IMG/VR virus record: IMGVR_UViG_3300020160_000476
Coordinates: 1-22,390 of that record
DNA from: a virus
Direction: 5' to 3' (one strand)
DNA: 22,390 nucleotides
Position 1 is the stretch's first letter, and each line of letters starts with the position of its first letter. A model generated the notes under the pieces. That model saw only the letters and a list, made by a program, of their open reading frames with translations, searched no databases and had not been told where the DNA came from. This document shows, in pieces, positions 2,392-22,075 of this stretch. Both the position numbers and the translations under genes were made by a program.

Positions 2392-2413
2392 CGTAATAAT
2401 TCAATTTTCTTCC

Positions 2414-2421
2414 ATATTTAT
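2414..2421 (+). promoter_or_regulatory. ATATTTAT motif, candidate late promoter element
   Basis: The motif lies 36 bases before the ATG of the 1209-residue fibre and is followed directly by a strong hairpin at 2421-2446. In the form ATATTTATA its complement contains TATAAATA. Confidence 0.5.
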
Positions 2422-2446
2422 ATAAGACCTATATAGGTTCCTTATA
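2421..2446 (+). promoter_or_regulatory. Leader hairpin before the 1209-aa fibre gene
   Basis: TATAAG-ACCT, a four-base ATAT loop, then AGGT and CTTATA with a two-base TC bulge, form a 10-bp stem. The core ACCTATATAGGT is a perfect 12-bp palindrome at 2427-2438. It ends 11 bases before the ATG at 2458 and has no T-run after it, so it is not a terminator. It could affect translation or mRNA stability, or bind a dimeric protein at the DNA level; the role is unknown. Confidence 0.5.
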
Positions 2447-2457
2447 ATCCCATAGAT

Positions 2458-5400: not shown

Positions 5401-6087
5401 CCACAAGCTGGAGCTGGTAGTGCTACATTAGCTGATGCTAAATTAACTATTAATGAAGCTGGTCAAGTTGGTATTGGCACTACTGCTCCTACATTAAAAT
5501 TAGTTGTTGATGGAGGTTCTGCGGATTTTACACCAATATGGGCAAAATCATCTTTGTTAGTAAGTAATAAATATTATGCATCAATTATAGCAGGTTATAC
5601 TTTAAATACTAATCAAGCAGCTCAATTTGGTTATGTTTATGATACTATAACACCTGCTAATTCTTTTGCGCATATTACTCCTTATGGTTCTTCTGAAGGA
5701 AGTGTATTTAAAATAAATACAACAGGTGCAGCAACATTTATAAGTAGTGTAACAGCTAATAGCTTAATTGTTAGCTCATCATTAATAGCAAACCAAAACA
5801 CAGCATCACTAGCATCAGGAGCACAAACCATATCAACAAACGCTACCAGCTCATATACAGCAGCATTCTTTAACTACACTGTAGCTTCAGGATCAAATGC
5901 TAGAGCAGGACAAGTAACAGCAGTATGGAATGGTGGAAGTATTCAATATACAGACGTATCAACAACAGACATAGGTTCTACCTTAGGAGTAGCATTTACT
6001 GCTTCGCTAAGTGGAGCAAACGTTAGATTAACAACAGTACTTCCAACCTCAGGATGGACAGTAAAAACATTAGCAAATCTATTATAA
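2458..6087 (+). CDS. Large tail fibre protein, 1209 aa, with Mtd-like N-terminus and GNVGIGTT repeats
   Basis: The N-terminus (residues 1-42, KLRRSSVAGNKPTTAQL then E-L-G-E-L-A-I-N-T-N-D-G-K-L-Y-F) is a widespread phage fibre attachment motif, similar to the Mtd N-terminal type. Next come nonapeptide A-S-Y-A repeats (about 83-155) and a beta domain (about 159-300) with G-D-N-P and ending G-E-L-H-D-V. After that are further A-S-Y-A arrays and an N-F-T-V-A-G-T-L-T-A-Q-T cassette near residue 377. Six G-x-V-G-I-G repeats follow (about 553-1017). The C-terminal roughly 95 residues (S-G-S-N-A-R-A-G-Q-V ... V-W-N-G-G ... T-D-I-G ... N-V-R-L) look like a fibre tip domain shared by many phages. It probably forms a trimeric adhesin; the receptor is unknown. 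A one-base gap follows before the next gene. Confidence 0.88.
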   Translation: MAQQVKLRRSSVAGNKPTTAQLELGELAINTNDGKLYFEKSSSLGESVQEIIVTDAWNTGSINVSGSVTVSGSINATSFIGSLFGTASYASNALSSSYALVSTSASYAATSTSASYASQATTASYANNATSASYANAATSASYALTASYAATASLAQNASDILVYVKNSSGAQINKGKVVRIIGAVGDNPLIATASYENDNNSANTLGITYQNIPNDDFGYVITEGTLIGINTNTFTAGQLIYLGATGSIIGTAPVAPLHAVRLGEVLRSQLNNGSIYIRVDNGYELGELHDVKDTSTTSSYGDLLVKSGSVWTNSNQLTGSYGLTGSLNATSFTGSLLGTASYATQALSSSYALNTTSASYALNATSAATASYANNFTVAGTLTAQTLVVQTITSSIIYSSGSNQFGDATNDTQLLIGTTKVTGSLEVTGSTTITGSLNVSSGITGSLLGTASYAVNALTASYYNGSVVSASYALTATSASYAQVAVSVSYFSGSISTAISASYAATASYAVLATTASYFSGSLSAPGSTTQILYNNGGTVAGDSGLVYSGSNVGIGTTSPGYKLEVNGTQRVVGNFYLYNTVTNVASNYSNQRGLGFDASTGATEIAASTVPLQLSRFSTTGDVLTIRHSGSYVSSLKTDGGAIFTGNVGIGTTSPLEILHLQSSQPVIQFTKTGILNWKIGNISGNNFTINTDAGGGDAFNILTNGNVGIGTTNPSARLSLGSSTNGERITWSDFSNVFSEYSSADLWLSANFYGNLGSSGYKTSFTAAYGAAGISVSSTGAGLDGVLRFFVNNAASKTAGDAFTPTERMRITGGGNVGIGTTSPTYNLHTYGTNPRNLIQDPSAGYPILQLNNASGNFYMSIDNSAGTGFGSAYGRYLYSDGAYPMMFVTNDVERMRITSGGNVGIGLTSPQKVLDVLSGANNFTTAGADNLSVGQWAGVHFGYRENNTDYRKSAIVFERTDLTSNNAQGKVHILNGPQAGAGSATLADAKLTINEAGQVGIGTTAPTLKLVVDGGSADFTPIWAKSSLLVSNKYYASIIAGYTLNTNQAAQFGYVYDTITPANSFAHITPYGSSEGSVFKINTTGAATFISSVTANSLIVSSSLIANQNTASLASGAQTISTNATSSYTAAFFNYTVASGSNARAGQVTAVWNGGSIQYTDVSTTDIGSTLGVAFTASLSGANVRLTTVLPTSGWTVKTLANLL
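2701..2922 (+). repeat. Nonapeptide repeat array, N-terminal part of the 1209-aa fibre
   Basis: About eight degenerate units of A-T-(S/T)-A-S-Y-A-x-x run from residue 83 or so to 155. Synonymous codons alternate (TCATAT versus TCATAC), so DNA identity is lower than peptide identity. Confidence 0.8.
3478..4020 (+). repeat. Further A-S-Y-A repeat blocks in the 1209-aa fibre
   Basis: Two blocks of A-S-Y-A-type units (about 3478-3582 and 3808-4020) flank the cassette at 3586-3681. Some units have Y-F-S-G in place of Y-A, which breaks the nine-residue rhythm. Confidence 0.7.
3586..3681 (+). repeat. Shared fibre cassette A, short copy
   Basis: Encodes NFTVAGTLTAQTLVVQTITS followed by S-I-I-Y-S-S-G-S-N. 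Two longer copies occur in the 1558-residue fibre at 6487-6699 and 9778-9990. Confidence 0.8.
4036..4161 (+). repeat. Shared fibre cassette B, copy 1
   Basis: Encodes APGSTTQILYNNGGTVAGDS and leads into a V-G-I-G-T-T unit. A 126-bp partner of the same length is at 7756-7881 in the next fibre gene, and a shorter relative is at 10564-10650. Confidence 0.8.
4114..5508 (+). repeat. G-x-V-G-I-G-T-T repeat region (6 units)
   Basis: Six degenerate units of the form G-N-V-G-I-G-T-T-S-P-x-x-K-L-x-V, spaced irregularly by beta-rich inserts, several of which end in E-R-M-R-I-T. This architecture is common in large phage fibres and in S74-bearing adhesins. Confidence 0.85.
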
Positions 6088-6088
6088 T

Positions 6089-6277
6089 ATGACATACGAA
6101 GTACAAATGCAATTTATTCCTGGATTGGATCAAATATGGGTAGCAGAGCTAACACCAGAATCACCAATTTACAGATACAATAATGAGCCAGAAGCACAAG
6201 CCAAGGCTACAGAATTACAAGATGCTGATCCGACAGGACGAAAATATAGAGTAGCATCTATGGCTATTGTAGAGTAA
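6089..6277 (+). CDS. Small conserved phage protein between fibre genes (62 aa)
   Basis: A 62-residue soluble protein, MTYEVQMQFIPGLDQIWVAE at its start, with a helical E-P-E-A-Q-A-K-A-T-E-L-Q stretch near residues 33-44 and G-R-K-Y-R-V near the end. It starts one base after the stop of the 1209-residue fibre (TAATATG), so it is probably translated by coupling. The alpha/beta pattern and the position suggest a small fibre-assembly helper or minor virion protein. No named family is recognised, and this function is only inference from context. Confidence 0.7.
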   Translation: MTYEVQMQFIPGLDQIWVAELTPESPIYRYNNEPEAQAKATELQDADPTGRKYRVASMAIVE

Positions 6278-6291
6278 TCTACATTTAGTTT

Positions 6292-6299
6292 ATATTTAT
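6292..6299 (+). promoter_or_regulatory. ATATTTAT motif, candidate late promoter element
   Basis: The motif lies 37 bases before the ATG of the 1558-residue fibre, in the form TATATTTATA. The complement contains TATAAATA. Confidence 0.5.
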
Positions 6300-6309
6300 A
6301 TTAAACACC

Positions 6310-6331
6310 ATTAGTGGAAAGTGAAACTAAT
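6310..6331 (+). promoter_or_regulatory. Possible leader hairpin before the 1558-aa fibre gene
   Basis: ATTAGT and ACTAAT can pair (6 bp) around a ten-base purine-rich loop GGAAAGTGAA, five bases before the ATG at 6337. The stem is weak, so a regulatory role is uncertain; the purine loop might instead serve as a ribosome contact. Confidence 0.3.
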
Positions 6332-6336
6332 AAGAC

Positions 6337-9300
6337 ATGGCAAACGAATTTATAGCTCGTAATGGACTCATTGCGCAGAACAACTCCACAGTAAGTGGCT
6401 CTTTAACAGTAACAGCAGGTATTACAGGCTCCATTTTTGGATCTGCATCATACGCTACAACAGCAGCAACAGCATCATATGCTAATAACTTTACAGTAGC
6501 AGGTACATTAACTGCTCAAACGTTAGTTGTTCAGACTATAACATCTTCAACTGTATATTCTTCGGGATCAAATATATTTGGTAATAGCTTAGCTAATACT
6601 CAAACATTTACTGGTTCAATGTATCAAACAGGATCAGTAGCTGCGTTTATGGGTAGTGTTGGTATAGGTACTACTAATCCAGGTTCAAAATTAGAAGTTG
6701 TTGGTATAGGAAGATTTACTGGCGCTGGAGGAAGAAGTGTTGTTCTAGAGGGTAATGGGGCTGGTAAAATAGATATTAATGGGGATGGAGCTACTTACGC
6801 AGTAGGAATAGCATTTAATAGTCAATTAGGTGGTACTACTTTAAGTGGAATATGGGATTACGGAAGTGGAACAACCCAAAATTGGTTAGCTGTAGGTGGT
6901 ACTAGTTACAATAACGCGGCGATGTATATTTTACCATCAGGTAATGTTGGTATCGGTACTACAAACCCTACTGCTAGATTAGAAATACCTTCAGCTAGTT
7001 CAGGCACAACAATTCTTGTTGGAAGAGCAGTTGGAAATTCTAGTATTAAAGCATTATCGGATGCTGCTGGTGGTATTCTAGCATTAGACTCAGCAGGAAC
7101 AGGAAATGGATTAATTTTAAATCATTACACATCCGATAACATATGGATGGTTACTGGTGGGGGTAGTGTTGGTATTAATACTAGTAGCCCTTCTTACAAA
7201 CTCGACGTATCAGGAAGTGGCCGATTTACAGGTGGATTAAGTCTAACCTCAGAAAACCCACAACTAACATTCACAGACACAACAGCAGGTGAAGATGATA
7301 TGACTTTAAGTATGAATGGTGATTACTTAGAGTTCTTATCAAATGCACTTAGAAATATAATCACTGTACATGGTGAAACATCAACCTATACTGGTAATGT
7401 TGGTATAGGCACTAATGTTCCAACTCAAAAATTAGAAGTAAATGGTGGTGATGCTTTAATACGAACTTCTTACATAGGTAACATATCCGCATTTGGTACA
7501 AACTATGCTTCATTTTCACACATAGCACGTACGGGGTCAGGAGATTATTCATTCATATCCGCAAATGATGGTACTACTTACATCAATGCTAAAACATCAA
7601 GTCCAATAAGATTTAGAATTGATAATACTGATAAGGTAATAATCAACTCTTTAGGTAATGTTGGTATTAATACTACAAGCCCAAACAACACTCTTCAAGT
7701 AGTAGGAGGCATTACAGCAACATCATTCACAGGTTCATTCTCAGGGTCATTAACCGCTCCAGGATCAACAACACAAATACTATATAACAATGCAGGCACC
7801 ATAGCTGGTGATTCTGGATTAATATATAGTGGATCTTACGTTGGTATTGGTCTTACAAACCCATCAGCACCATTAGATACAAATGGTGTACGTTTAGGTA
7901 GAAATTGGGCAGTTGCTGGTCGTGCTAATATTAGATTAGACTCTAGTGGATCAGCTTACCCAGCAGATATTTTATTTGGACACACAGCAGCAGCTAATCA
8001 AACTAGTTGGGATGGGGCTTATTGGTCATTATCTTCTAGAGCGGATAATGCTAGTAATAGATTTTACATATATAGAGGAGGAGGTAATCCAAGTGGTTCT
8101 GGTGAAGAAGTTATTATGGCTTTAGAACCTAATGGTAAAGTCGGCATTGGTACTACAAGCCCATTAACCCAACTACAAGTAGTAGGTGGATATATTAGTA
8201 CTAAAGATAATGCTGCTTACGGTGGTGCTTTCTTAGAAGGTGGTAATGGTATTAGTTATTTTGGATCATTAGGATCAGATGATATTCAATTATATACTGG
8301 TGGAGCAACAAAGGTAACAATTAAACAAAGTACTGGTAATGTTGGTATTGGTTCTACAGCCCCCGGCTATGCATTAGATGTAGTAGGTGATGCTAGAGCT
8401 AGAGGCTTTATTGTAGAGGGAGGAGGAGCATATGCTTCTGGATCAATTTATTCTGATGGAAATTGGGGTATGTTATTCCGAGCACGACAAGCATCTCCAG
8501 TACAAGCTCAGTTTATGTGGGCTACTGCAGGCGATACTGAGTTAATGAGAATTAGTGCTGCTGGTAATGTTGGTATTGGAACTACAAGTCCAGGAGCAAA
8601 ACTCCACGTCTTAGCAGGATCAAACAGCACCAGCATGTTATTAGACCATGGTAGTTCTGCAGATAGAACTTACTTTGGATTTGATGGTACTGGAAACTAT
8701 ATAGAAACAAATGGAGCTACTACAGCTAAACAAAGATTAAGATTACAAGTATATAACAGCAGTAGTCTAGCATATACTCAATTATTTATAGATGGAGGCA
8801 ATAATGTAATTTATACTAGTGCTACGGCAAATGTTGGTATTGGTATTACAAACCCAAGTAGTAAACTACATGTTTACAGTTCAGGAGCTACTAGTGTAAA
8901 TATTCAATCGGGTGGTGGTGATTATGCTTATCTTCAACTTTCTACTCCTGCTAGTGGTGATGGATATTTAATCAAAAATACAGCTACAGCTAATAGCACA
9001 GTTGGCAAAAGTTTATACTTATGGAATACTGATGGTCCAATTCAATTTGTACCTAGTGCTACTATAGGGAATGCTGTTACAATCAGTACATCTGGACATG
9101 TAGGTATTGGTAGCGCTAGTCCATCTTCTATCTTAAACACATCAGGATCAAACCAAGGAATCACACACGATGATGTAGCTGGTAAAGGATATATAAGATT
9201 TAGAAATAGTGGTACTACATTAGCATTATTTGGTGTAGCAGGATCTTGGGAAGGTAGTACTTTACAAGATACAATGATTGCCGCTGAAACAGGATTAAAC

Positions 9301-11013
9301 ATTAGATTCTATACTAATGGATCAGCAACACCTAAAATGTTTATTTCAAGTTCAGGTGATGTTGGTATTGGTACTACTAGTCCAGGATACAAGTTAGATG
9401 TAAACGGAAATGCTAGAGTGAGTGGTCAAGTTGTATCAAATACTCAATTTAATGTTGCTGGTACTCCTACTGCTAATAGTGGAGATTTAGTAAACATAAG
9501 AGATTTAAGTGCAACGGGGGCTAACACTACTTTTGGTGGTGTATTTTTTAACTCAAGCCCCGGTAGCGATTACTCAATAGGTAAATTAACCGAAAATAAT
9601 AACGGATTTTTACAAATAAGAAATGGAAATAATGGTGCAGAATTATTAAGAATCAATTCTACTGGTGTAGCAACATTTAGTGCAGGCGTAACAGCAACCT
9701 CATTCACAGGTTCATTATTAGGAACAGCAACTAATGCAACTTCTGCATCATATGCAGCAACATCATCTTATGCTACTAACTTTACAGTAGCAGGTACATT
9801 AACAGCACAAACGCTTGTAGTACAAACTATAACGTCTTCAATTGTATACTCTTCAGGTTCGAATATATTTGGTAATGACTTAACTAACACTCAAGTGTTT
9901 ACAGGTTCACTATATCAAACAGGATCAGTAGCAGCATTTATGGGAAGTGTCGGTATTGGAACAACAAACCCAGGCTCAAAACTATATGTAGAAGGTGGAT
10001 CAGCAGATTGGAGTCTTCCAACCCCAGGAACAGCAGTAGGTACAATACATCTAGATCCAGGAGTTGCTACAGACAACTTTGGTAATGCTATTACCTTTGG
10101 AGCAAGTGATTCAAGTGCTGGTGCAACAGCAATGGCTGGTATCTATGTAAGAACAGATGGTGCTTATGGTTCAAAGATGTACTTTGGTACAACAGACTCA
10201 TATGTCGCTGGATCTAAAATAGCAGTAACTATCAATGAAAGTCAACGTGTTGGTATTGGAACTACAGATCCTGCTACTAAGCTTCATGTCTACTCATCAG
10301 GAGGAGGAATGGAGTTATCTCCGGGATCAACAACTACACTTGAATTTATAGATAGAGCAAATACATCTGCAACTGTTAATACAGCTTTTTATACAAGACT
10401 TGGTTATTTTTCTTGGAATATAGGTAGTTATTCTGAAGCAATGAGAATAACTGGTGGTGGTAATGTCGGAATCGGCTCAACATCACCAACCGAAGGCAAA
10501 TTAGTTGTCAATGGTGGAGTATATGCAACTTCATTTACAGGTTCATTCTCAGGTACAATAGCAGCACCAGGATCAAACACCCAAGTAATGTATAATAACA
10601 GTGGTGTTATAGCAGGTTCTTCAAATCTAACCTTTGATGGTTCTACATTGAATGTAACAGGAACTTTAACAGCTACAGTTAAATCATTCGTAATTGATCA
10701 CCCAACCAAAACAGATAAGAAATTACAATACGGTGTACTTGAGGGACCAGAACATTCAGTTTATGTTCGTGGTAAACTAAAGAACACCAACTATATTCCA
10801 TTACCAGACTACTGGCATGCATTAGTGCATGAAGATAGTATTACTGTTAATATAACAGCTATAGGTAGAAACCAAGAGATTTGGGTTAATGAGGTTACTG
10901 ATCGAGGAATATATTTAGGATATGAAGGCGATACAATAGAATATTTCTATACTGTGTTTGCTGAACGTAAAGATATAGATAAATTAGTTACTGAATTTGA
11001 TAAGGAGATTTAA
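6337..11013 (+). CDS. Giant tail fibre protein, 1558 aa, with 15 GxVGIG repeats and FVIDHP-type C-terminal domain
   Basis: This is the largest gene in the window. The N-terminus (MANEFIARNGLIAQNNSTVS) leads into a short A-S-Y-A stretch and cassette A (from about residue 51). Fifteen G-x-V-G-I-G/N-type repeats follow, separated by beta-rich inserts of varied length. Cassette A recurs near residue 1148 and cassette B near residues 474 and 1410. Residues 1448-1558 form a distinct C-terminal domain with K-S-F-V-I-D-H-P, L-E-G-P-E-H-S-V-Y-V-R-G and F-A-E-R-K-D, a module I know from phage fibre or virion proteins, notably of marine myoviruses. It probably forms the distal tip or trimerisation unit. 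No catalytic motif was seen. The next gene starts after a three-base gap. Confidence 0.87.
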   Translation: MANEFIARNGLIAQNNSTVSGSLTVTAGITGSIFGSASYATTAATASYANNFTVAGTLTAQTLVVQTITSSTVYSSGSNIFGNSLANTQTFTGSMYQTGSVAAFMGSVGIGTTNPGSKLEVVGIGRFTGAGGRSVVLEGNGAGKIDINGDGATYAVGIAFNSQLGGTTLSGIWDYGSGTTQNWLAVGGTSYNNAAMYILPSGNVGIGTTNPTARLEIPSASSGTTILVGRAVGNSSIKALSDAAGGILALDSAGTGNGLILNHYTSDNIWMVTGGGSVGINTSSPSYKLDVSGSGRFTGGLSLTSENPQLTFTDTTAGEDDMTLSMNGDYLEFLSNALRNIITVHGETSTYTGNVGIGTNVPTQKLEVNGGDALIRTSYIGNISAFGTNYASFSHIARTGSGDYSFISANDGTTYINAKTSSPIRFRIDNTDKVIINSLGNVGINTTSPNNTLQVVGGITATSFTGSFSGSLTAPGSTTQILYNNAGTIAGDSGLIYSGSYVGIGLTNPSAPLDTNGVRLGRNWAVAGRANIRLDSSGSAYPADILFGHTAAANQTSWDGAYWSLSSRADNASNRFYIYRGGGNPSGSGEEVIMALEPNGKVGIGTTSPLTQLQVVGGYISTKDNAAYGGAFLEGGNGISYFGSLGSDDIQLYTGGATKVTIKQSTGNVGIGSTAPGYALDVVGDARARGFIVEGGGAYASGSIYSDGNWGMLFRARQASPVQAQFMWATAGDTELMRISAAGNVGIGTTSPGAKLHVLAGSNSTSMLLDHGSSADRTYFGFDGTGNYIETNGATTAKQRLRLQVYNSSSLAYTQLFIDGGNNVIYTSATANVGIGITNPSSKLHVYSSGATSVNIQSGGGDYAYLQLSTPASGDGYLIKNTATANSTVGKSLYLWNTDGPIQFVPSATIGNAVTISTSGHVGIGSASPSSILNTSGSNQGITHDDVAGKGYIRFRNSGTTLALFGVAGSWEGSTLQDTMIAAETGLNIRFYTNGSATPKMFISSSGDVGIGTTSPGYKLDVNGNARVSGQVVSNTQFNVAGTPTANSGDLVNIRDLSATGANTTFGGVFFNSSPGSDYSIGKLTENNNGFLQIRNGNNGAELLRINSTGVATFSAGVTATSFTGSLLGTATNATSASYAATSSYATNFTVAGTLTAQTLVVQTITSSIVYSSGSNIFGNDLTNTQVFTGSLYQTGSVAAFMGSVGIGTTNPGSKLYVEGGSADWSLPTPGTAVGTIHLDPGVATDNFGNAITFGASDSSAGATAMAGIYVRTDGAYGSKMYFGTTDSYVAGSKIAVTINESQRVGIGTTDPATKLHVYSSGGGMELSPGSTTTLEFIDRANTSATVNTAFYTRLGYFSWNIGSYSEAMRITGGGNVGIGSTSPTEGKLVVNGGVYATSFTGSFSGTIAAPGSNTQVMYNNSGVIAGSSNLTFDGSTLNVTGTLTATVKSFVIDHPTKTDKKLQYGVLEGPEHSVYVRGKLKNTNYIPLPDYWHALVHEDSITVNITAIGRNQEIWVNEVTDRGIYLGYEGDTIEYFYTVFAERKDIDKLVTEFDKEI
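6487..6699 (+). repeat. Shared fibre cassette A, long copy 1 (213 bp)
   Basis: Encodes N-F-T-V-A-G-T-L-T-A-Q-T through QTGSVAAFMGSVGIGTTNPG. The second copy of equal length is at 9778-9990 in the same gene. Confidence 0.85.
7756..7881 (+). repeat. Shared fibre cassette B, copy 2
   Basis: Encodes APGSTTQILYNNAGTIAGDS and matches the block at 4036-4161 in the preceding fibre gene in length and peptide. Confidence 0.8.
9778..9990 (+). repeat. Shared fibre cassette A, long copy 2 (213 bp)
   Basis: In-frame copy of 6487-6699. The peptides differ at only a few positions, for example F-G-N-S-L-A-N-T versus F-G-N-D-L-T-N-T. Confidence 0.85.
10564..10650 (+). repeat. Shared fibre cassette B, diverged copy 3
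   Basis: Encodes APGSNTQVMYNNSGVIAGSS just before the C-terminal F-V-I-D-H-P domain. It lacks the trailing V-G-I-G unit of the other two copies. Confidence 0.65.
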
Positions 11014-11016
11014 GTT

Positions 11017-12099
11017 ATGGCTTTAAATTATGGACCTATATTACCTAACAAAGAAAATCTGATATTTACATATCAGCCAGGAGCAACAACACCATTTACT
11101 AATTTTACAGCTTCACTAGCATCTGATGTGGCTACTCCTTCAAAAGGAGCAGTTATGGGGCCTAGAAGAAAAAATGCTGACCAAACTACAGTATATGATG
11201 ATATCTACTCAGTAGATAATTACCAAGGAATTCCAACATTATCTCTACAAAATATTGCTAGTTCAGTTTATAATTTAAATACAGCTAATACAAATATATA
11301 TACTCTATCTTTATGGGTTAAAGTTGTACAATTTCCTACTAAATATAATCGCACAGCATCATTTGGATCTGATACTGGTCTTGTTACAAAAACAAAACGA
11401 GCAGCATTAGCTAAATTTGATTACTCATATTCAGGAGCAGGAACTCAATATAACGGATTTATACAGTTTGGAGCTATGGCTCCTTATTATAAAAACGCTA
11501 GTGGAACTCCAAATTACAAATCAGTATTTTCTCCTATATCGTTTGGAGCTGCTATATGTTGTGCTAAATATCAAGCAAGTGTTTACACTGATTATAAATT
11601 TAATTTAAATCAATGGTATCTACTTACAATACAATTACAAAGTAATTCTAATTTTGCTTCTTCTGCTCAAACACTTAATGTTAAAATGTTTGTAAATGAT
11701 TCTCAAGAAAATATTGCTAAATGTTTAGGTATAGCATGGAGACAACATTTCGGAAAACGTTTAAAAAGACAACTAGGTGACGTAGCAGGGCAACCCGGAT
11801 TTTATAATCGTGCAACAGGAGGAACAGTATCAAATGTTAGTTCACAATCTTTAACTTATAATTATTTTATAAATTTAGCTAGACTAAATTGTATATCATA
11901 TTCTCCTGTATTACAATTTGGAAGTGAAGGAGTTCGTGCAATAAGTAGTAATAATGGTATAAACACCCCAGGTATAATCTCTGGTACTCATAGTGCTAGA
12001 TTTAACGTAGGATCATCTATTAATTTTGGTCAAACATATATTTATAATACGGCATTTAATTCATCACTATATACTCAATTTAATAGTTTATACAGTTAA
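11017..12099 (+). CDS. Putative virion protein with lectin/LamG-like fold (360 aa)
   Basis: A 360-residue protein starting MALNYGPILPNKENLIFTYQ. The patterns I-Y-T-L-S-L-W-V-K-V (about 93-102) and N-L-N-Q-W-Y-L-L-T-I-Q-L (about 193-204) are characteristic strands of concanavalin A/LamG-like jelly-roll domains, as in the two paralogues downstream, although overall similarity to them is low. An A-I-C-C-A-K stretch is unusual in this Cys-poor region. It starts three bases after the 1558-residue fibre gene. AAGGAG lies nine bases before the ATG, inside the upstream gene's last codons, and is the only Shine-Dalgarno-like start noticed here. A structured terminator region follows. A glycan-binding role is inferred from the fold; confidence in the gene itself is high. 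Confidence 0.72.
   Translation: MALNYGPILPNKENLIFTYQPGATTPFTNFTASLASDVATPSKGAVMGPRRKNADQTTVYDDIYSVDNYQGIPTLSLQNIASSVYNLNTANTNIYTLSLWVKVVQFPTKYNRTASFGSDTGLVTKTKRAALAKFDYSYSGAGTQYNGFIQFGAMAPYYKNASGTPNYKSVFSPISFGAAICCAKYQASVYTDYKFNLNQWYLLTIQLQSNSNFASSAQTLNVKMFVNDSQENIAKCLGIAWRQHFGKRLKRQLGDVAGQPGFYNRATGGTVSNVSSQSLTYNYFINLARLNCISYSPVLQFGSEGVRAISSNNGINTPGIISGTHSARFNVGSSINFGQTYIYNTAFNSSLYTQFNSLYS
12038..12045 (+). promoter_or_regulatory. ATATTTAT motif inside the end of the 360-aa gene
   Basis: This is the one ATATTTAT copy noticed inside a coding region. It lies 54 bases before the stop, upstream of the folded intergenic element at 12100-12177. It may be chance within the Y-I-Y-N codons or may drive a short transcript. 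Confidence 0.25.
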
Positions 12100-12152
12100 A
12101 GATATTATCCTCTGCGGAGGGTGGACTGGTACTACAGAAATGTAGTTTATCT
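12100..12152 (+). ncRNA. Candidate structured RNA element (three-way junction) between lectin-like genes
   Basis: In the 99-base gap, AGATA (12100-12104) can pair with TATCT (12148-12152) and enclose two hairpins: CCTC-TGCG-GAGG (12109-12120) and ACTACA-GAAA-TGTAGT (12131-12146, with a GAAA tetraloop). A strong terminator follows at once. The stretch is much richer in G+C than its surroundings and has no coding frame of note. It resembles a small RNA, a processed 3' end or a riboswitch-like leader. I recognise no known RNA family, and hammerhead core bases are absent. Existence as an RNA is inference. Confidence 0.4.
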
Positions 12153-12177
12153 AGGGGCGTGAAAGCGCCCCTTTTTT
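12153..12177 (+). terminator. Rho-independent terminator
   Basis: AGGGGCG (12153-12159), loop TGAAAG, CGCCCCT (12166-12172), then a T-run to 12177. It is a seven-base-pair GC-rich stem in an AT-rich genome and separates the fibre/360-residue gene group from the LamG-like paralogues. Confidence 0.9.
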
Positions 12178-12198
12178 CAAACAAAACAAAATTATAAT

Positions 12199-13362
12199 AT
12201 GCCGTCATCAGTAGGACCAAATATAATAGGAGAAAATAATATAGTATTAGCTTATGATACTGGTGATACGGTTAATTCGTATAAGGGAGAGCCTACAACT
12301 AATTTATACACAACATTAGGCTTTGGGTTCTACCAGCAAGAAGGAAACCATTCAGCTGTAAGAACTACTGGTCCTGCTCCTGATTTAACTTTACCATCTA
12401 ACTATGATTATACTACTGTAACTGCTACTGGTAATTGGCAATCAGAAGTTAATCGATTAATTATATGGACAGATTCTGGTTTATCTTCAGGTACATATAA
12501 TATATCTTTTTGGGCTCGAGTAACTAGCACAGCATCAGCAACAATAGGGTGTGCGTTTTATGGTAATAGTCTTAACCAATCAATGTCATTAACAACTCAA
12601 TGGCAACGTTTTTCTATACAATCTACTACCCATTCTACATATAGAGCTACTGAATTTGGTTCTTTAAGTGGAGCTATTGTATTTCAAATTGCTGGATTAC
12701 AAATAGAAGCAATATCACATGTAACACCATATGTTAGTGGTACTCGCTCAGTAACACAAGGTCTACTACCAATAATAAGTAATACATCATTAGATTTATC
12801 TAATATGTCTTATACTTCAAATGCACAAATAACATTTGATGGAACGAATGATTATATAGATATAGGAAATTTAGGTACAATTGGTAATGAATATAGTATA
12901 GAATGTATATTTAATTCATCAGCAGTAGTAAACTATAGAAATGTATTTGATATGAATTATGCTACTTATGCTGGTGTAACAGGTAATGTTGGGCCTCGAT
13001 TAGAGCAATACTCAGATGGAACATTTTCAATCACATGGTCAGGTGTCACAAATAACAATTCATTAGCTGTTGGAACTACACCAATATCAATTTCTGCTAA
13101 TACCAATTACCATGTAACTTTTGTACAAAATGGATTAAATGGATCTATATACTTAAATGGTGTATATAGAAACCAAACAAGTAACACATATGGTTATATT
13201 CAAACTTTTGGAGATGCAAATTTAGGTAGGGGATTTGAGTTAGCTGGAGATAGATACTTTATAGGTTCACTCCCAGTATTTAAAGTATACAACAGAGCAC
13301 TAACATCATCCGAAATACAACAAAATTACCAACAATATAAATCACGTTTTAATTTAAGCTAA
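12199..13362 (+). CDS. LamG/concanavalin-like putative receptor-binding protein, paralogue 1 (387 aa)
   Basis: The N-terminal segment (residues 8-40: NNIVLAYDTGD, then G-E-P-T-T-N) is shared with the next gene. Residues about 95-187 look like a carbohydrate-binding beta-sandwich (G-T-Y-N-I-S-F-W-A-R-V ... I-A-G-L-Q-I-E ... T-P-Y-V-S-G-T-R-S). Residues 208-387 match a LamG-3/concanavalin-like domain: N-A-Q-I-T-F-D-G-T-N-D-Y-I-D, N-Y-H-V-T-F, S-I-Y-L-N-G, V-Y-N-R-A-L-T-S-S-E-I-Q-Q-N-Y. It probably binds glycans and sits on a fibre or the baseplate (inference). It follows the terminator at 12153-12177, and no ATATTTAT motif was found in that gap. The leader reads ATTATAATATG with no Shine-Dalgarno sequence. 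Confidence 0.82.
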   Translation: MPSSVGPNIIGENNIVLAYDTGDTVNSYKGEPTTNLYTTLGFGFYQQEGNHSAVRTTGPAPDLTLPSNYDYTTVTATGNWQSEVNRLIIWTDSGLSSGTYNISFWARVTSTASATIGCAFYGNSLNQSMSLTTQWQRFSIQSTTHSTYRATEFGSLSGAIVFQIAGLQIEAISHVTPYVSGTRSVTQGLLPIISNTSLDLSNMSYTSNAQITFDGTNDYIDIGNLGTIGNEYSIECIFNSSAVVNYRNVFDMNYATYAGVTGNVGPRLEQYSDGTFSITWSGVTNNNSLAVGTTPISISANTNYHVTFVQNGLNGSIYLNGVYRNQTSNTYGYIQTFGDANLGRGFELAGDRYFIGSLPVFKVYNRALTSSEIQQNYQQYKSRFNLS

Positions 13363-13363
13363 T

Positions 13364-14548
13364 ATGTCAGTAGCAAATGGATATGGAAAAATAATAACAA
13401 GTGGATCAATATTCGCTTATGACACTGGTGACTTTAAAAATTCATATATAGGAGAGCCTACAACAAATTACCAAAATGGAATTAGTCCTTGGACTGTTGG
13501 AGGTGTAAATACTGATGTTAGTAATACTATTGATCAGGGACCAATAGCAAATGCTAAAACATGGAAGTTTGAAAAAACAGGAACTTCGAACCAATGGAAT
13601 GGTTGGGAAGATACTTATGGAGGAATATGGACTGGAAATTCAGGTGATATTTGGACTACGAGTTATTGGTATAAAACAACTGCACCTGCTGGAAGTACAG
13701 CATTTGGTATTGGATACTTTTATTTGTCAAATTGGTCTGCACCTTATAATACATCAATATTAGCTAATTCAAATGGTATTATAGCTGATGGACAATGGCA
13801 TTATAATTATACAACAACCCAGTTTAATGAAAATTATAGCAATGCTATTATTGTAGATGGACCTTCTTGGGGATATAGTACCCAAGCAGGTACTTTATAT
13901 ATAAACGGATTACAATGGGAAAAAAAATCTCACCCAACTCCTTTTGCTGGGTATACTCGCTCAGTAACTCAAGGCTTACTTCCTATTGTAAGTAACCAAA
14001 CGTTAAATTTATCCGCTGTATCATTCGATACAAACGCTCAAATGATATTTGATGGTACAAACGATAAAATCGATACAGGATTAGGGAACATTGGAAATAA
14101 CGTTTCATTCGCCGCTATAATTAATTCAGCAGGTTCAGCAAACGAATATAATATGTACATGGGACAATTATTACCATACATGGGAGCGTATGCTGGAGTA
14201 TTAATTATATTTTCAGATTATATTGATTCAGTACAACGAACAATAAATACTAATAGTGGTACTATAGTTACAGGACAAAACCATTATGTGGTTTGTACTA
14301 GGGAATATGATGGATCTAGTACTACAAATAAAATATATATTGATGGTAAACTACTAAATTCAGGAACATGGAGTGGTGCTCCTACATATGTTGGGTATAA
14401 TATAACAGTTGGTGATGGACGATCAACTTCTACATGGTATCCATTTTATGGAAAAGTAAACGCAACACAAATATACAATAGAACACTAACAGCCGGTGAA
14501 ATTGAACAAAATTACCAGCATTATAAAACACGTTTTAACTTAAGTTAA
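13364..14548 (+). CDS. LamG/concanavalin-like putative receptor-binding protein, paralogue 2 (394 aa)
   Basis: This is a tandem paralogue of the preceding gene, joined by TAATATG. It shares A-Y-D-T-G-D ... Y-x-G-E-P-T-T-N at the start, TRSVTQGLLPI in the middle, N-A-Q-M-I-F-D-G-T-N-D-K-I-D at residue 224, K-I-Y-I-D-G-K-L-L, and IYNRTLTAGEIEQNYQHYKT at the end. Residues 60-200 (W-x-x-x-x-G-N-S-G-D-I-W-T-T-S-Y-W-Y-K ... L-Q-W-E) are much more diverged than the LamG part, so the two proteins may recognise different ligands. The two genes differ mainly in the inner jelly-roll, as expected of duplicated receptor-binding modules. No enzyme motif is visible. Confidence 0.82.
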   Translation: MSVANGYGKIITSGSIFAYDTGDFKNSYIGEPTTNYQNGISPWTVGGVNTDVSNTIDQGPIANAKTWKFEKTGTSNQWNGWEDTYGGIWTGNSGDIWTTSYWYKTTAPAGSTAFGIGYFYLSNWSAPYNTSILANSNGIIADGQWHYNYTTTQFNENYSNAIIVDGPSWGYSTQAGTLYINGLQWEKKSHPTPFAGYTRSVTQGLLPIVSNQTLNLSAVSFDTNAQMIFDGTNDKIDTGLGNIGNNVSFAAIINSAGSANEYNMYMGQLLPYMGAYAGVLIIFSDYIDSVQRTINTNSGTIVTGQNHYVVCTREYDGSSTTNKIYIDGKLLNSGTWSGAPTYVGYNITVGDGRSTSTWYPFYGKVNATQIYNRTLTAGEIEQNYQHYKTRFNLS

Positions 14549-14555
14549 TATTTAT
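14548..14555 (+). promoter_or_regulatory. ATATTTAT motif, candidate late promoter element close to a start
   Basis: The motif overlaps the TAA of the upstream gene and lies only six bases before the ATG at 14562. If it is a -10-like element, this transcript would be nearly leaderless, unlike the other copies with 15-45 base spacings. Confidence 0.4.
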
Positions 14556-14561
14556 AGGTAT

Positions 14562-14900
14562 ATGGATGAATTTTTAAATAGACGTTGGCTAGTAATACCA
14601 ACAAGCATAACAGGATCAATTGACTTTAGCCAAGTATTAGATACTAACGCTAGTACACTACGCTATAGTGTAGATGGTACTGAAACATTCGTTAAGTATG
14701 AAACCAATACTGTAACAGCTAGCTATACAGTAGACTACATAAACGCAGAAACAAACGAAACAGGTAGCTATACGATAGAGGCAGGAGTATATGGTCGTCC
14801 ATCTTCTATATATTCAACAGAATATACAGAATATAATCACGAAGAAATACTAACATTATTATCCACAGAAGCGTGGACACAACCAATGATAATAGAATAA
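14562..14900 (+). CDS. Small hypothetical structural protein (112 aa)
   Basis: A 112-residue acidic protein: MDEFLNRRWLVIPTSITGSI at the start, a Thr/Tyr-rich beta middle (V-K-Y-E-T-N-T-V-T-A-S-Y-T-V-D-Y), and an E-E-I-L-T-L-L-S-T-E-A-W helix near the end. It is joined to the S74 fibre gene by TAATATG, so the two are probably co-translated; such neighbours of fibres are often attachment or assembly partners. I recognise no family, and a role in fibre assembly is inferred only from position. Confidence 0.65.
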   Translation: MDEFLNRRWLVIPTSITGSIDFSQVLDTNASTLRYSVDGTETFVKYETNTVTASYTVDYINAETNETGSYTIEAGVYGRPSSIYSTEYTEYNHEEILTLLSTEAWTQPMIIE

Positions 14901-14901
14901 T

Positions 14902-17900
14902 ATGGCAGATATTAGAATAACCCCAGCATCCAGCATAATGGCTTTCACAAGCTCATTATCGTTTAAGGAAACATTAACACAAGATGCTTCGGGATCTATA
15001 GTTTTATATGGATCTGGTTCTACAGGTAGAACCAATGTGTTTGCCATAGATGGAGGTAGTGGTAGATTATTCTCTGTTGATGACAGCTTATCAGATTCAT
15101 TATTTTCAGTAAATACAATCGCTGGTTTACCAGTGATAGAGGCATTCGCAGACAATACAGTTAACATAGGAAAATATGGAGCTTACTCATTTGTAGCTAC
15201 AGGCTCAGGTGATGCTCGTATTGGATCGGGTAGTGTAATGTTTGTAAGTGCTAGTGGTAATGTTGGTATTGGTACTACTAGTCCAGGCTACAAATTAGAT
15301 GTTGTAGGAGATATAAGATTACAAGGTAATAACCAAGTATATTTTGACACTACCAGTGATAGTGCTAGTAACTATATTGGTATAACAAATGACTATTGGT
15401 TAACATTATATTGCGGCAGAGGAAATAATTCTAGAATAGACTTAACAAATGGTACTGGTATTTTGTTTTCTGAATCAGGAACAGAAAGAATGCGTGTTAA
15501 CGCTGGAGGTAATGTAGGTATTGGTACTACAAGTCCTGATTCAAAATTACATGTATCTACAACAGCATCTAATCCATTCAGAATGGTTAGAACTGGTGGA
15601 ACTGCTACTAACTTTGGATTTGAATTTGGAGGTGGAGATATTGGATTATATAACTACTCAACTTCTGCATATGGTTGGTTTCTTACAGCAGCAGGTTTGG
15701 TCGGCATAGGAACAACGAGCCTAACCTATAAATTCGAAGTACACAACAATGCAACAGCAAATGCTGCATTACTTTATAGTTCAACATCTGCAACTACTGT
15801 AGCTATAGGAAGTACAAGTAATACTAACAACGCAAACGTAATATGGTACACAGATAGTGGTACGGGTCAAATATTTAGAGGTGGTACTGGATTTAGCGCA
15901 TGGGCTGGTGCATTATCTTTAAACATTTATAATAGTAATGGTCCTATAGGTTTCCATCCAGGAGCTACAGCTAATGCATTATATCTTACTACTGGTGGTT
16001 TAGTTGGTATTGGAACTAATAGTCCACTTAACCTGCTTCACGTATCACAAGCGTCAGCAAATACTATTTTCAGATTAGGTAATAACGCATCATACGACCA
16101 ATTTATATACTTCAATGGTGGTAATGATTGGTCATTAGGTATGGATTATTCTAATTCTAATGCTTTTGTATTATCCAACGCTTCATCTATCGGTACTAAT
16201 GATAGATTAGTAGTTACAACTGGAGGTAACGTAGGTATTGGCACTACAAACCCATCTGAAAAACTAGCAGTAGCAGGTGCTATTACAAGTACAAGTATTA
16301 TATATACATCTGCAGGTAGTTTACTCGCTCGAGCAAGTGGAACCGAAGGAGCTCAATATCAATTAAATGGTATTACAGTAGGATATAGTGCAACAGGAAC
16401 TTATGGCTGGCTTACAGCTGGTGGAGCCGCGGCAAGAACATCTTTAGCTTTAAATGCAGGTGGTGGTAACGTCGGTATTGGAACTACAAATCCAAGTTTT
16501 AACCTAGACATAGCAGGTAGTGCTAGAGCGTTTGTAGGAGCAGGTACAACCAACTATAACTACTTCCAAGTAGCAGAAATTGGTGCTAACCTATATGGTA
16601 GATTCCATTATATTCCAAGTGGTTTCTCTACTGCTGGTCTTACTTTAGCTAATAGCGTTTTGATAAACGCAGCAGATGGAGCAACAGCAGGTTTAGTTAT
16701 TAGAACAGATGCAAATGCTCCTATTATATTTGGTACAAACCAAACTAGTGAGAAGATGCGTATCACTGGACCTGGGGCAGTTGGTATTGGTACCACTAAT
16801 CCAGGTACTAACTTAGAAGTATATTCATCTAATGCCATAGTTAGGATTACAAATACAAATGCTAATTCTTATAGTGAACTTCATTTTAATGAAGGAGGAA
16901 CAGTGAAAGCTGAGCTATTTGTTGTTGGATCTACTCAAACAACATACGGAGGATCCAACTCACTTAACATATATCAAGCATCAAATGCACCTATAGCATT
17001 TTTTACTAATGGTGGCAATGAAAGAATGCGTATTACAGGAGCTGGTAATGTTGGTATAGGAACTACATCACCACAAGCTTTATTAGATGTAAACGGCGGT
17101 GATGGCACACCAGCAGGAACACAATTTACAGCGGTTATCAAAGGTACTTCATCAAGAACATTATATTTTGATGGTGGTGGTTCAGGGGCTTCAGTATGGT
17201 GGGGTGATGGTAACTCTCCTCAATTTGCAATAGATTCAATTTCAGGTGGTGGAGCAGCATTTTGGACAAATGATGGTAGTTGGTCTGAAAGAATGCGTAT
17301 TACCTCCGCAGGTAATGTAGGTATAGGAACTACAAACCCATCAACCAAACTAGATGTAGTAGGTGCAAATATAAGAACAGATAAAGCATTTATGTCTCAA
17401 GGATCAAATGCAACGTGGTCTGGAGCTGCCTGTTTTATGGATTATATCCCGGCTTCATCTTATGGTAGAATAGGAGTATATGATTATGGTGAACCTACTT
17501 GGCAAAATTTATATGTTGGTGGAGGAGGAAAGGTAGGTATTGGTACTACAACATTTACCTACAAGTTAAACTTACTTGGTGATTTGTATATTACTGGTGG
17601 ATCTATAGGTGTAGGTGTTGCTCCAAATGCTACAGATGGTAGAATTGATGCTTCAAACGATATTGTAGCTTACTCAACATCCGATATTAGATTCAAAGAA
17701 AATATACAACGTATTCCAAACGCTTTAGAGAAAGTAAACACATTATCAGGTAATACATTTACTTGGAAACCTGATCCTGAATTAACTAAGCTACATGGTT
17801 TTGAAGGAAACGATGTTGGTATCATAGCTCAAGAAATTGAAGCAATTTTACCAGACATTGTAACTACGAGAGATTCAGGATACAAAGCAGTTAAGTATGA

Positions 17901-17973
17901 AAAACTAGTACCACTATTGATTGAAGCTATCAAAGAACTAACCGATAAAGTAAACAAACTAGAGAACAAGTAA
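14902..17973 (+). CDS. Tail fibre with C-terminal S74 (intramolecular chaperone) domain, 1023 aa
   Basis: The N-terminal part (about residues 46-95) has N-V-F-A-I-D-G-G-S-G-R-L-F-S-V-D-D and L-F-S-V-N-T-I-A-G-L-P-V-I-E-A-F, a module often seen at the start of S74-type phage adhesins. Ten G-x-V-G-I-G-T repeats fill residues 119-892. The C-terminal domain starts at SDIRFKENI: Ser927 and Lys932 match the S-D-x-R-x-K catalytic pair of the S74/endosialidase intramolecular chaperone family, which folds the trimer and then cuts itself off. D-V-G-I-I-A-Q-E-I-E and Y-E-K-L-V-P-L-L-I-E-A-I-K-E-L follow, ending in a coiled coil. Cleavage would release about 97 residues. Its stop overlaps the next ATG (TAATG). 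Confidence 0.92.
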   Translation: MADIRITPASSIMAFTSSLSFKETLTQDASGSIVLYGSGSTGRTNVFAIDGGSGRLFSVDDSLSDSLFSVNTIAGLPVIEAFADNTVNIGKYGAYSFVATGSGDARIGSGSVMFVSASGNVGIGTTSPGYKLDVVGDIRLQGNNQVYFDTTSDSASNYIGITNDYWLTLYCGRGNNSRIDLTNGTGILFSESGTERMRVNAGGNVGIGTTSPDSKLHVSTTASNPFRMVRTGGTATNFGFEFGGGDIGLYNYSTSAYGWFLTAAGLVGIGTTSLTYKFEVHNNATANAALLYSSTSATTVAIGSTSNTNNANVIWYTDSGTGQIFRGGTGFSAWAGALSLNIYNSNGPIGFHPGATANALYLTTGGLVGIGTNSPLNLLHVSQASANTIFRLGNNASYDQFIYFNGGNDWSLGMDYSNSNAFVLSNASSIGTNDRLVVTTGGNVGIGTTNPSEKLAVAGAITSTSIIYTSAGSLLARASGTEGAQYQLNGITVGYSATGTYGWLTAGGAAARTSLALNAGGGNVGIGTTNPSFNLDIAGSARAFVGAGTTNYNYFQVAEIGANLYGRFHYIPSGFSTAGLTLANSVLINAADGATAGLVIRTDANAPIIFGTNQTSEKMRITGPGAVGIGTTNPGTNLEVYSSNAIVRITNTNANSYSELHFNEGGTVKAELFVVGSTQTTYGGSNSLNIYQASNAPIAFFTNGGNERMRITGAGNVGIGTTSPQALLDVNGGDGTPAGTQFTAVIKGTSSRTLYFDGGGSGASVWWGDGNSPQFAIDSISGGGAAFWTNDGSWSERMRITSAGNVGIGTTNPSTKLDVVGANIRTDKAFMSQGSNATWSGAACFMDYIPASSYGRIGVYDYGEPTWQNLYVGGGGKVGIGTTTFTYKLNLLGDLYITGGSIGVGVAPNATDGRIDASNDIVAYSTSDIRFKENIQRIPNALEKVNTLSGNTFTWKPDPELTKLHGFEGNDVGIIAQEIEAILPDIVTTRDSGYKAVKYEKLVPLLIEAIKELTDKVNKLENK
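15256..17577 (+). repeat. G-x-V-G-I-G-T-T repeat region (10 units)
   Basis: Ten units were counted by eye, often preceded by E-R-M-R-I-T or M-R-V-N-A-G-G. An eleventh, G-V-G-V-A-P-N, is a degenerate match just before the S74 domain. They form the shaft of the 1023-residue fibre. Confidence 0.85.
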
Positions 17974-19018: not shown

Positions 19019-19264
19019 ATGTCAACATTTTTAATCTTTGTAGTAATTACACTATTAGTAGCTATCGGTATCGGATTCGTTATCGTAGGTAAAGAAAACA
19101 CACCAGAAGGTGAAGCTAAAAAACCAAACTCATTGTTCCCAATTGAAGACCACCCAGCGTTTGAAGATGTTCCAGTAGCAGTAGAAAAACCAGTGGTAGT
19201 AGTACCTAAGCCTAAGAAAAAATACTACAATAACAACAACAACAAAAAAACAATTAAAAAATAA
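19019..19264 (+). CDS. Small membrane-anchored protein with Pro/Lys and Asn-rich tail (81 aa)
   Basis: Residues 4-24 (FLIFVVITLLVAIGIGFVIV) form one clear membrane segment, followed by an acidic linker (H-P-A-F-E-D-V), a V-V-V-V-P-K-P-K-K-K stretch, a run of Asn (N-N-N-N-N-K-K) and a basic end. The N-terminal anchor with an extended basic tail predicts a single-pass inner-membrane protein. It could be a lysis-related or assembly-site protein, but it has no holin or spanin signature, so the function is unknown. It heads a four-gene cluster placed just before the sheath gene, with a two-base gap to the next gene. Confidence 0.65.
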   Translation: MSTFLIFVVITLLVAIGIGFVIVGKENTPEGEAKKPNSLFPIEDHPAFEDVPVAVEKPVVVVPKPKKKYYNNNNNKKTIKK

Positions 19265-19266
19265 TT

Positions 19267-19725
19267 ATGTCTAGCATTAAATTAAAGTTACACGAATACT
19301 ATTCATTGGATAGTGAAATCAATGGATTAAAAAATCCACAAACTGGTGAAGTATTATCTGAAGGCTTATTAGCTGAGAAATTAGGTTTAGTTACTAAATA
19401 TTGGTTAACTGATCTATCTAAGAAAGTAGCAGACGAAAAAACAGCAATCGAAACCATGAAGACTGATTTAATCAAGAAACATGGCACTGAGGATGAAGAT
19501 AAAAATATCTCAATTCCAATGTGGATCGATGAAGAAAAAGATGAAGATGGAAACATTATCTCAGCTAAACCAAATCCAACATTCATTAAATTCCAAGAAG
19601 AATTCAATGCATTGTTGCAAGAGGAAAAAGAATTAGAATACCACGAATTTAAATTAGATGATTTTAAATCAGTAGAAACATCTGAAAACTACACTGTATT
19701 CTATAAATTAGTTCAAGTTGACTAA
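19267..19725 (+). CDS. Hypothetical acidic helical phage protein (152 aa)
   Basis: A 152-residue, charge-rich protein beginning MSSIKLKLHEYYSLDSEING, with Leu/Glu/Lys helices at about 30-75 and 105-130 around an acidic turn (D-E-E-K-D-E-D-G-N). The start 'K-L-x-x-Y-Y-x-L-x-x-E-I-N-G-L' resembles small helical proteins near tail genes in other phages (loosely like DUF1617 proteins), but this is weak. Its stop overlaps the next ATG (TAATG). A tail-assembly chaperone or scaffold role would fit its place between fibre and sheath genes; this is inference. Confidence 0.65.
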   Translation: MSSIKLKLHEYYSLDSEINGLKNPQTGEVLSEGLLAEKLGLVTKYWLTDLSKKVADEKTAIETMKTDLIKKHGTEDEDKNISIPMWIDEEKDEDGNIISAKPNPTFIKFQEEFNALLQEEKELEYHEFKLDDFKSVETSENYTVFYKLVQVD

Positions 19726-20323: not shown

Positions 20324-22075
20324 ATGGCAGAACAAATCATCTCTCCTGGAGTATTCCAGATAGAAACAGACCAAAGTATCTACACGCAACAGCCTCAAGA
20401 AATAGGCGCTGCTATCGTAGGTCCTACAGTATCAGGTCGTCCTTTAGTTCCAACGTATGTTACTACTTATTCGCAATTCCAATCACTTTTCGGTGAGCAA
20501 TTCAAAAGTGGTAGCTATTATTACGAATATTTCACATCACAAGCTGCTAAAGAATACTTTAGCAATGGTGGAAAAACATTATTAGTAACTAGAATCATTA
20601 GTGGTTCATCAGGTATTAGTACGTATGCGACTTCAACTATTCCTGCCCTTGTAGGTACAGGATCATCATTCCAATTAGAAACATTATCTTGGGGTGCACA
20701 AATGAACAACACATCTAGTATGTCAAGTGGTTCATTAGACAGTGGCTCTATGTTTAACGTTCGTTGGGAAGTAACAGCAGTAAATTCAGGAAGTGGTACA
20801 TTCACATTGACAGTTCGTCGTGGTGATGATAACAACAACACTAAAAATATTTTAGAAACATGGGCTAACATGAGTTTAGATCCATAACAATCTAACTATA
20901 TTGCTCGTGTTATTGGTGATTTAAAACCAGTATACGTTGCAGCAACAGGTGGAAGTTCAGCTTATGTTAATTTCTCTGGATCATATTCAAATAAATCACA
21001 ATACGTTCGTGTATCAGCAGTAACAGTTCCTCAAGTAGATTCAATCGACAATAATGGAGCATATAAAGCAACCCAATACAGTGGTAGTTTACCATTAGTA
21101 GGAAGTGGTTCATATGGTGGTTCATTTAGTGGTGGTGTAGTAGATACAACAGCTATTAAACAAATGAATGAAAATATCGGTACAGGTGCTGGTTACATAA
21201 CTGGTTCTACAGGTAACATTCAGGGATTTGGAACAGCAGATTACGCATTAGCATTTAATTTATTAACAAATAAAGACGAATACCAATTCAACGTATTATT
21301 AGCTCCAGGTGCTGGTTTAGATAGTGCTGCAGCAGCTACAATGATTTCTACAGCAGAAGGTAGAGGCGATGCAATCGCAATTACAGATGCAGGTGTATAT
21401 GGTACAGCAATTGCAACAGCAGCTCAAAACGCAGCTGGACAATCAAGTAACTACGCTGCTACTTATTATCCTTGGGTTCAATTATACTCAACTACATTAG
21501 GTAAAGTATTATGGTGCCCACCATCAACAGTAATCGGTGGTGTATTAGCATTTAATGATAATGCTGGTGCTGAATGGTTTGCTCCTGCTGGATTAAACAG
21601 AGGTGGTATTCCAAACGTACTATTAGCAGAACGTAAATTACAACAAACAGATCGCGATACATTATATAGTGCAAATGTTAACCCATTAGCAACATTCCCA
21701 GGAACTGGAGTATGTGTTTGGGGTCAGAAAACATTACAACGTAAACCAACATCTTTAGACAGAATCAACGTTCGTCGTTTATTAATTGCTTTAAAAGATT
21801 TCGTTGGAAGTGTATCTCGTACATTAGTATTCGAACAAAACACAACAGTAACAAGAAATAGATTCTTATCTCAAGTTAATCCATACTTAGAATCAGTAGT
21901 ACAACGTCAAGGTTTATACGCTTACAAAGTAGTAATGGATGATTCAAATAACACACCAGATGTTATTGATAGAAACCAATTAGTAGGTCAAATTTATATC
22001 CAACCTACAAAAACGGCTGAATTTATTATATTAAACTTTAACTTACAACCAACTGGAGCAACGTTTCCAGGATAA
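20324..22075 (+). CDS. Tail sheath protein (T4 gp18 family), interrupted by in-frame TAA
   Basis: The frame encodes 583 sense-length codons of a contractile tail sheath. The N-terminus MAEQIISPGVFQIETDQS, I-G-A-A-I-V-G-P-T and A-A-K-E-Y-F-S-N-G-G-K are typical of gp18 homologues. The C-terminus has T-S-L-D-R-I-N-V-R-R-L-L-I-A-L-K, F-E-Q-N-T-T-V-T-R-N-R-F and G-Q-I-Y-I-Q-P-T-K-T-A-E-F-I. Codon 188 (20885-20887) is TAA between S-L-D-P and Q-S-N-Y-I-A-R-V-I-G-D, while the same frame stays open and family-like on both sides. The next ATG is at 21164 (codon 281), too far in to restore the lost domain, and no GTG or TTG codon lies between. Explanations are a base error, a real nonsense mutation, or readthrough/suppression. 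It ends in tandem TAA TAA. Confidence 0.9.
20885..20887 (+). other. In-frame TAA inside the sheath gene
   Basis: TAA replaces a sense codon between CCA (Pro187) and CAA (Gln). One-base changes from TAT/TAC (Tyr), CAA (Gln), AAA (Lys), GAA (Glu), TCA (Ser) or TTA (Leu) could produce it. TAA is the normal terminator of nearly every other gene here, so a general reassignment of TAA is excluded. Confidence 0.9.

Follow-up and report, generated by a model that had tools for sequence, protein, structure and literature searches.

An in-frame TAA in the tail sheath gene of a T4-like phage contig and its probable origin as a contig-private substitution

The tail sheath gene and its surroundings

The stretch of DNA analysed here, referred to as the window, is a whole virus record of 22,390 nt. 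It carries a gp18-like tail sheath gene, whose frame runs from ATG 20324 to TAA 22073–22075 and is open throughout except at codon 188. At this codon, a TAA in frame with ATG 20324 occupies positions 20885–20887, in agreement with the preliminary description, which had reported an internal stop in an otherwise intact sheath gene. The features of the locus are as follows.

20324..22075, plus strand, gp18-like tail sheath gene of 583 codons, with codon 188 counted as sense
20885..20887, plus strand, in-frame TAA at codon 188, with a private C-to-T at 20885 (CAA, Gln, in the six nearest relatives that cover it)
20324..20887, plus strand, truncated ORF of the contig as it stands, 187 residues
21164..22075, plus strand, ORF of 303 amino acids that opens at the first in-frame start past the stop and would lack residues 188–280
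21230..21736, plus strand, Pfam PF04984, sheath subtilisin-like domain, residues 303–471, entirely 3' of the stop
21743..22045, plus strand, Pfam PF17482, sheath C-terminal domain, residues 474–574, entirely 3' of the stop

The read-through product resembles T4-like gp18 (PHROG 23; PF04984, PF17482), since it matches the PHROG 23 tail sheath family over residues 2–581 and T4 gp18 (PDB 3j2m and 9mkb) over its C-terminal part; it differs in the ochre codon at position 188, which is present in this contig and in none of the relatives. Motifs of the gp18 family had been claimed for both halves of the protein. This held for the second half, where the Pfam and PHROG domains are found, but not for the first 187 residues, which matched no family when searched alone against Pfam and PHROGs and which are assigned to the sheath because the relatives carry them within a single uninterrupted ORF. 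The domains of a contractile sheath lie on one continuous protein in the read-through product, in the sibling contig L101 and in the relatives, while the window's own ORF is interrupted. The sheath is strongly conserved across the family, and most of its substitutions relative to near relatives fall at third codon positions. The tail tube gene follows directly downstream, where the sequence from 22165 onward matches PHROG 4542, and is complete in L101 (L101:3160–3645).

A large part of the window (457–17973) is taken up by tail-fibre genes of great length, in which GNVGIGTTSP-type repeats are numerous. A Laminin_G_3 domain is found at 12199–13362, and the last fibre gene (14902–17973) terminates in an S74 chaperone domain. 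The fibre genes could be compared with distant relatives only; a single stop was listed, in the alignment 448–2268, which starts before ATG 457, and this stop was taken to lie in the leader before that ATG.

Codon 188 in related phages

Searching viral contigs with both halves of the sheath yielded about 150 relatives. The alignment of related sheath proteins that had been suggested for this site placed a stop at codon 188 in this contig only and a sense codon in all the other 162 sequences, among which some contigs are duplicated. The codon is CAA in 75 of these 162 sequences (duplicates included), and the remainder mostly encode Ala, Met, Asn or Ser. The family varies at residue 188 (Q, A, M, N, S, G, L), so no special signal is to be seen there.

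The nearest relatives that cover the site, L101, L003, L089, L090, L092 and L002, all have CAA, and a base-by-base comparison with seven near relatives gave C at 20885 in all six that cover the position. The closest of the comparisons is that with L101, which is 99.65% identical to the window (12 differences over 3,385 nt), has CAA at codon 188 and encodes an open 583-residue sheath. The sequence of the site with its TAA was sought in other viral contigs and found in none, and an exact search for the site in genome contigs gave no match. Since CAA is present in the nearest relatives and TAA in no other contig, the stop is one private C-to-T change at 20885; the ancestral codon is CAA (Gln), and TAA is a single recent replacement of it. 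Inspection of the codon in near-identical sibling contigs is a cheap check, which can be made before any recoding is proposed.

We thus consider it very probable that the TAA arose by substitution of one base (CAA to TAA) in this contig alone, that the gene concerned is a normal T4-like sheath gene, and that the stop has neither a function nor a special decoding. The preliminary description had offered an error, a minor variant, or readthrough or suppression as explanations. The first two are supported by the absence of the stop from all relatives, the ancestral CAA and the lack of the TAA in any other viral contig, whereas readthrough or suppression found no support in the tests of decoding described below. 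Mis-assembly through a second copy of the sheath was rejected, as the nine relative records searched for such a copy gave a single match each. It may be added that 5.6% of random point changes in the sheath gene create a stop, so that isolated stops are to be expected when many contigs are screened.

Origin of the base and a second private stop

The sibling contigs L035 and L101 (3300020172 and 3300020205) derive from metagenomes of Lake Erken, Sweden, which were sequenced on a HiSeq 2500 (2x125 bp), each being assembled on its own with megahit at a minimum coverage of 2 (PMC7527133). The window is presumed to come from Lake Erken as well, solely on account of its near identity to these two contigs. 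When a mixed population is assembled at low coverage, rare or wrong bases may enter the consensus, and incorrect gene sequences caused by local assembly errors are a recognised problem (PMC7111523). Few reads would have supplied the base at 20885 to the consensus of the contig. Its source may be a sequencing or assembly error, which we regard as somewhat more likely, or a genuine but rare and non-viable nonsense genome in the mixed lake population, to which an appreciable though smaller probability is assigned. In either case, the phages that make virions would encode Gln at codon 188 and produce a full-length sheath by ordinary translation.

Two further positions of the sheath gene bear on the origin of the base.

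21506..21507, plus strand, other window-private sheath change, adjacent AC to GT, Thr to Val at residue 395
21887..21889, plus strand, codon 522, TTA (Leu) in the window, TGA in the sibling contig L035 (L035:656–658)

Identity between L035 and the window is 99.5% across the 1,159 nt common to both. The TGA of L035 at codon 522, like the TAA at codon 188, was sought in other contigs and found in none. After removal of antisense shadow ORFs, which were the source of many reverse-strand matches, the final nonsense scan of 777 kb of conserved coding sequence from 162 contigs contained these two codons as the only in-frame stops flanked by conserved sequence, and chance alone is insufficient to account for them. 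Different stops in the same gene of two of three sibling contigs count against the main explanation, because independent random errors rarely fall so close together. L035 and L101 differ at four positions in 6,490 nt, all of them in the first 860 nt, near the contig end, a clustering with a chance of about 3e-4 under an even spread. Such concentration is the single feature that plain random error explains poorly. The cluster reads as the pattern of a locally weak consensus or of a mixed strain tract, and in our view each of the two stops is either a consensus error due to low coverage or the mark of a rare defective genome.

The two different private stops would also be accommodated if sheath-nonsense genomes were present at appreciable frequency in the lake phage population, through co-infection with intact phages or relaxed selection, the stops then being independent null alleles. 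This proposal, which we consider improbable, draws on the finding that the differences between siblings concentrate in the sheath and immediately downstream of it and that most of the sheath-specific ones alter the protein. Against it stand the strong conservation of the family sheath with mostly third-position substitutions among near relatives, the intact gene of the sibling L101 and the fact that neither stop recurs in another contig; moreover, clustered low-coverage errors yield the same pattern. Little credence is likewise given to the suggestion, prompted by the two stops in siblings, that sheath-null alleles segregate in the lake phage population and persist through co-infection or because the host suppresses nonsense codons. 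If the stops of the siblings were real alleles, complementation of defective phages in lakes would become testable; the present evidence does not require such alleles.

The private substitution is comparable to the ochre and amber mutants of T4 in that a one-base change introduces a nonsense codon into a structural gene that is essential. The classical T4 mutants are laboratory mutants propagated on suppressor hosts, whereas here the codon is read from an assembled consensus alone and a suppressor was not found.

Among the other differences between siblings, 8 of the 12 that separate the window from L101 lie within a 200-nt tract (19124–19323), several of them common to other strains, and this tract looks like the product of recombination. 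Val at residue 395, the result of the adjacent AC-to-GT change, is common elsewhere in the sheath family.

Readthrough, a split sheath and code reassignment

Translation of the stop by readthrough or with a suppressor tRNA of host or phage, resulting in short and long forms of the sheath, is very unlikely. In its favour, the frame is intact downstream, and a residue inserted at the stop would probably be accepted, given the range of residues tolerated there. However, TAA is recognised by both bacterial release factors, and the stop is conserved in no relative. The preliminary description had pointed to the CAA after the stop as a feature shared with the readthrough site of tobacco mosaic virus (UAG CAR YYA). 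The likeness ends with this CAA: the codon here is TAA and not TAG, the bases that follow are CAATCT, in which TCT breaks the YYA part of the CAR-YYA motif, and there is no conservation. The CAA is also older than the stop, as it is the second codon of an ancestral Gln-Gln that is present in relatives without the stop; together with its flanks, it is the same in the relatives with CAA at codon 188, so no context has evolved with the stop. Programmed readthrough of this type was accordingly rejected.

An RNA element that stimulates readthrough was rejected as well. In the 100 nt that follow the stop, folding is slightly better than in shuffled sequences (z -2.06, one fold), which would favour readthrough, but the fold is not tied to the stop because the same 100-nt sequence is present in the CAA-bearing L101.

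A suppressor tRNA with anticodon UUA, which had been put forward as a means of decoding the stop, was not encountered either. ARAGORN found no tRNA in the window and 38 relative loci, and suppressors with anticodon UUA, CUA or UCA, sought in the window, these 38 loci and the relative contigs G001, G006, G007, G010, G011 and G012, were not found; the search included three contigs of about 169–173 kb, the genome represented by the window being itself incomplete. These three, G010 (171.7 kb), G011 (168.9 kb) and G012 (173.2 kb), have 25, 6 and 1 tRNA genes, respectively, none of which reads a stop. A tempting case of stop-codon readthrough in a phage is thereby removed.

A sheath naturally split at codon 188 into two cooperating polypeptides is exceedingly unlikely, even though both parts are open frames. 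The AlphaFold model, with a mean pLDDT of 62, is mostly good over residues 30–300 and poor in the C-terminal part. Codon 188 is placed in a loop between the strand 176–184 and the helix 193–197, and this loop sits inside a beta domain (strands 102–233, pLDDT mostly 70–95) and at no domain border. A chain ending at codon 188 would be cut inside a domain and would contain neither of the Pfam sheath domains, and the next in-frame start, at 21164, would yield a second chain without residues 188–280. On these grounds, a functional split sheath is judged unlikely from the model, and all relatives are unsplit.

Reassignment of TAA to Gln in this phage would suit the ancestral codon and is excluded, in line with the preliminary description, which had ruled it out: TAA terminates 16 of the 17 window genes, and a search of conserved genes for further in-frame TAA codons found none beyond this one. 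In the phages with reassigned stops (code 15, code 4), the codon is TAG or TGA, many genes are affected and a suppressor tRNA is often present (PMC11210395). The stop described here resembles the TAG-to-Gln change of code 15 in occupying a position where relatives have Gln, and differs in being one TAA in one gene.

The 25 tRNA genes of G010 form a cluster at L179:6185–13924, and none of them decodes a stop. In G011 and G012, tmRNA genes (Rfam RF00023, 61 and 69 bits) with tags ending in ADYAVAA lie beside tRNA genes, at L193:16635–16997 and L197:16745–17129, respectively.
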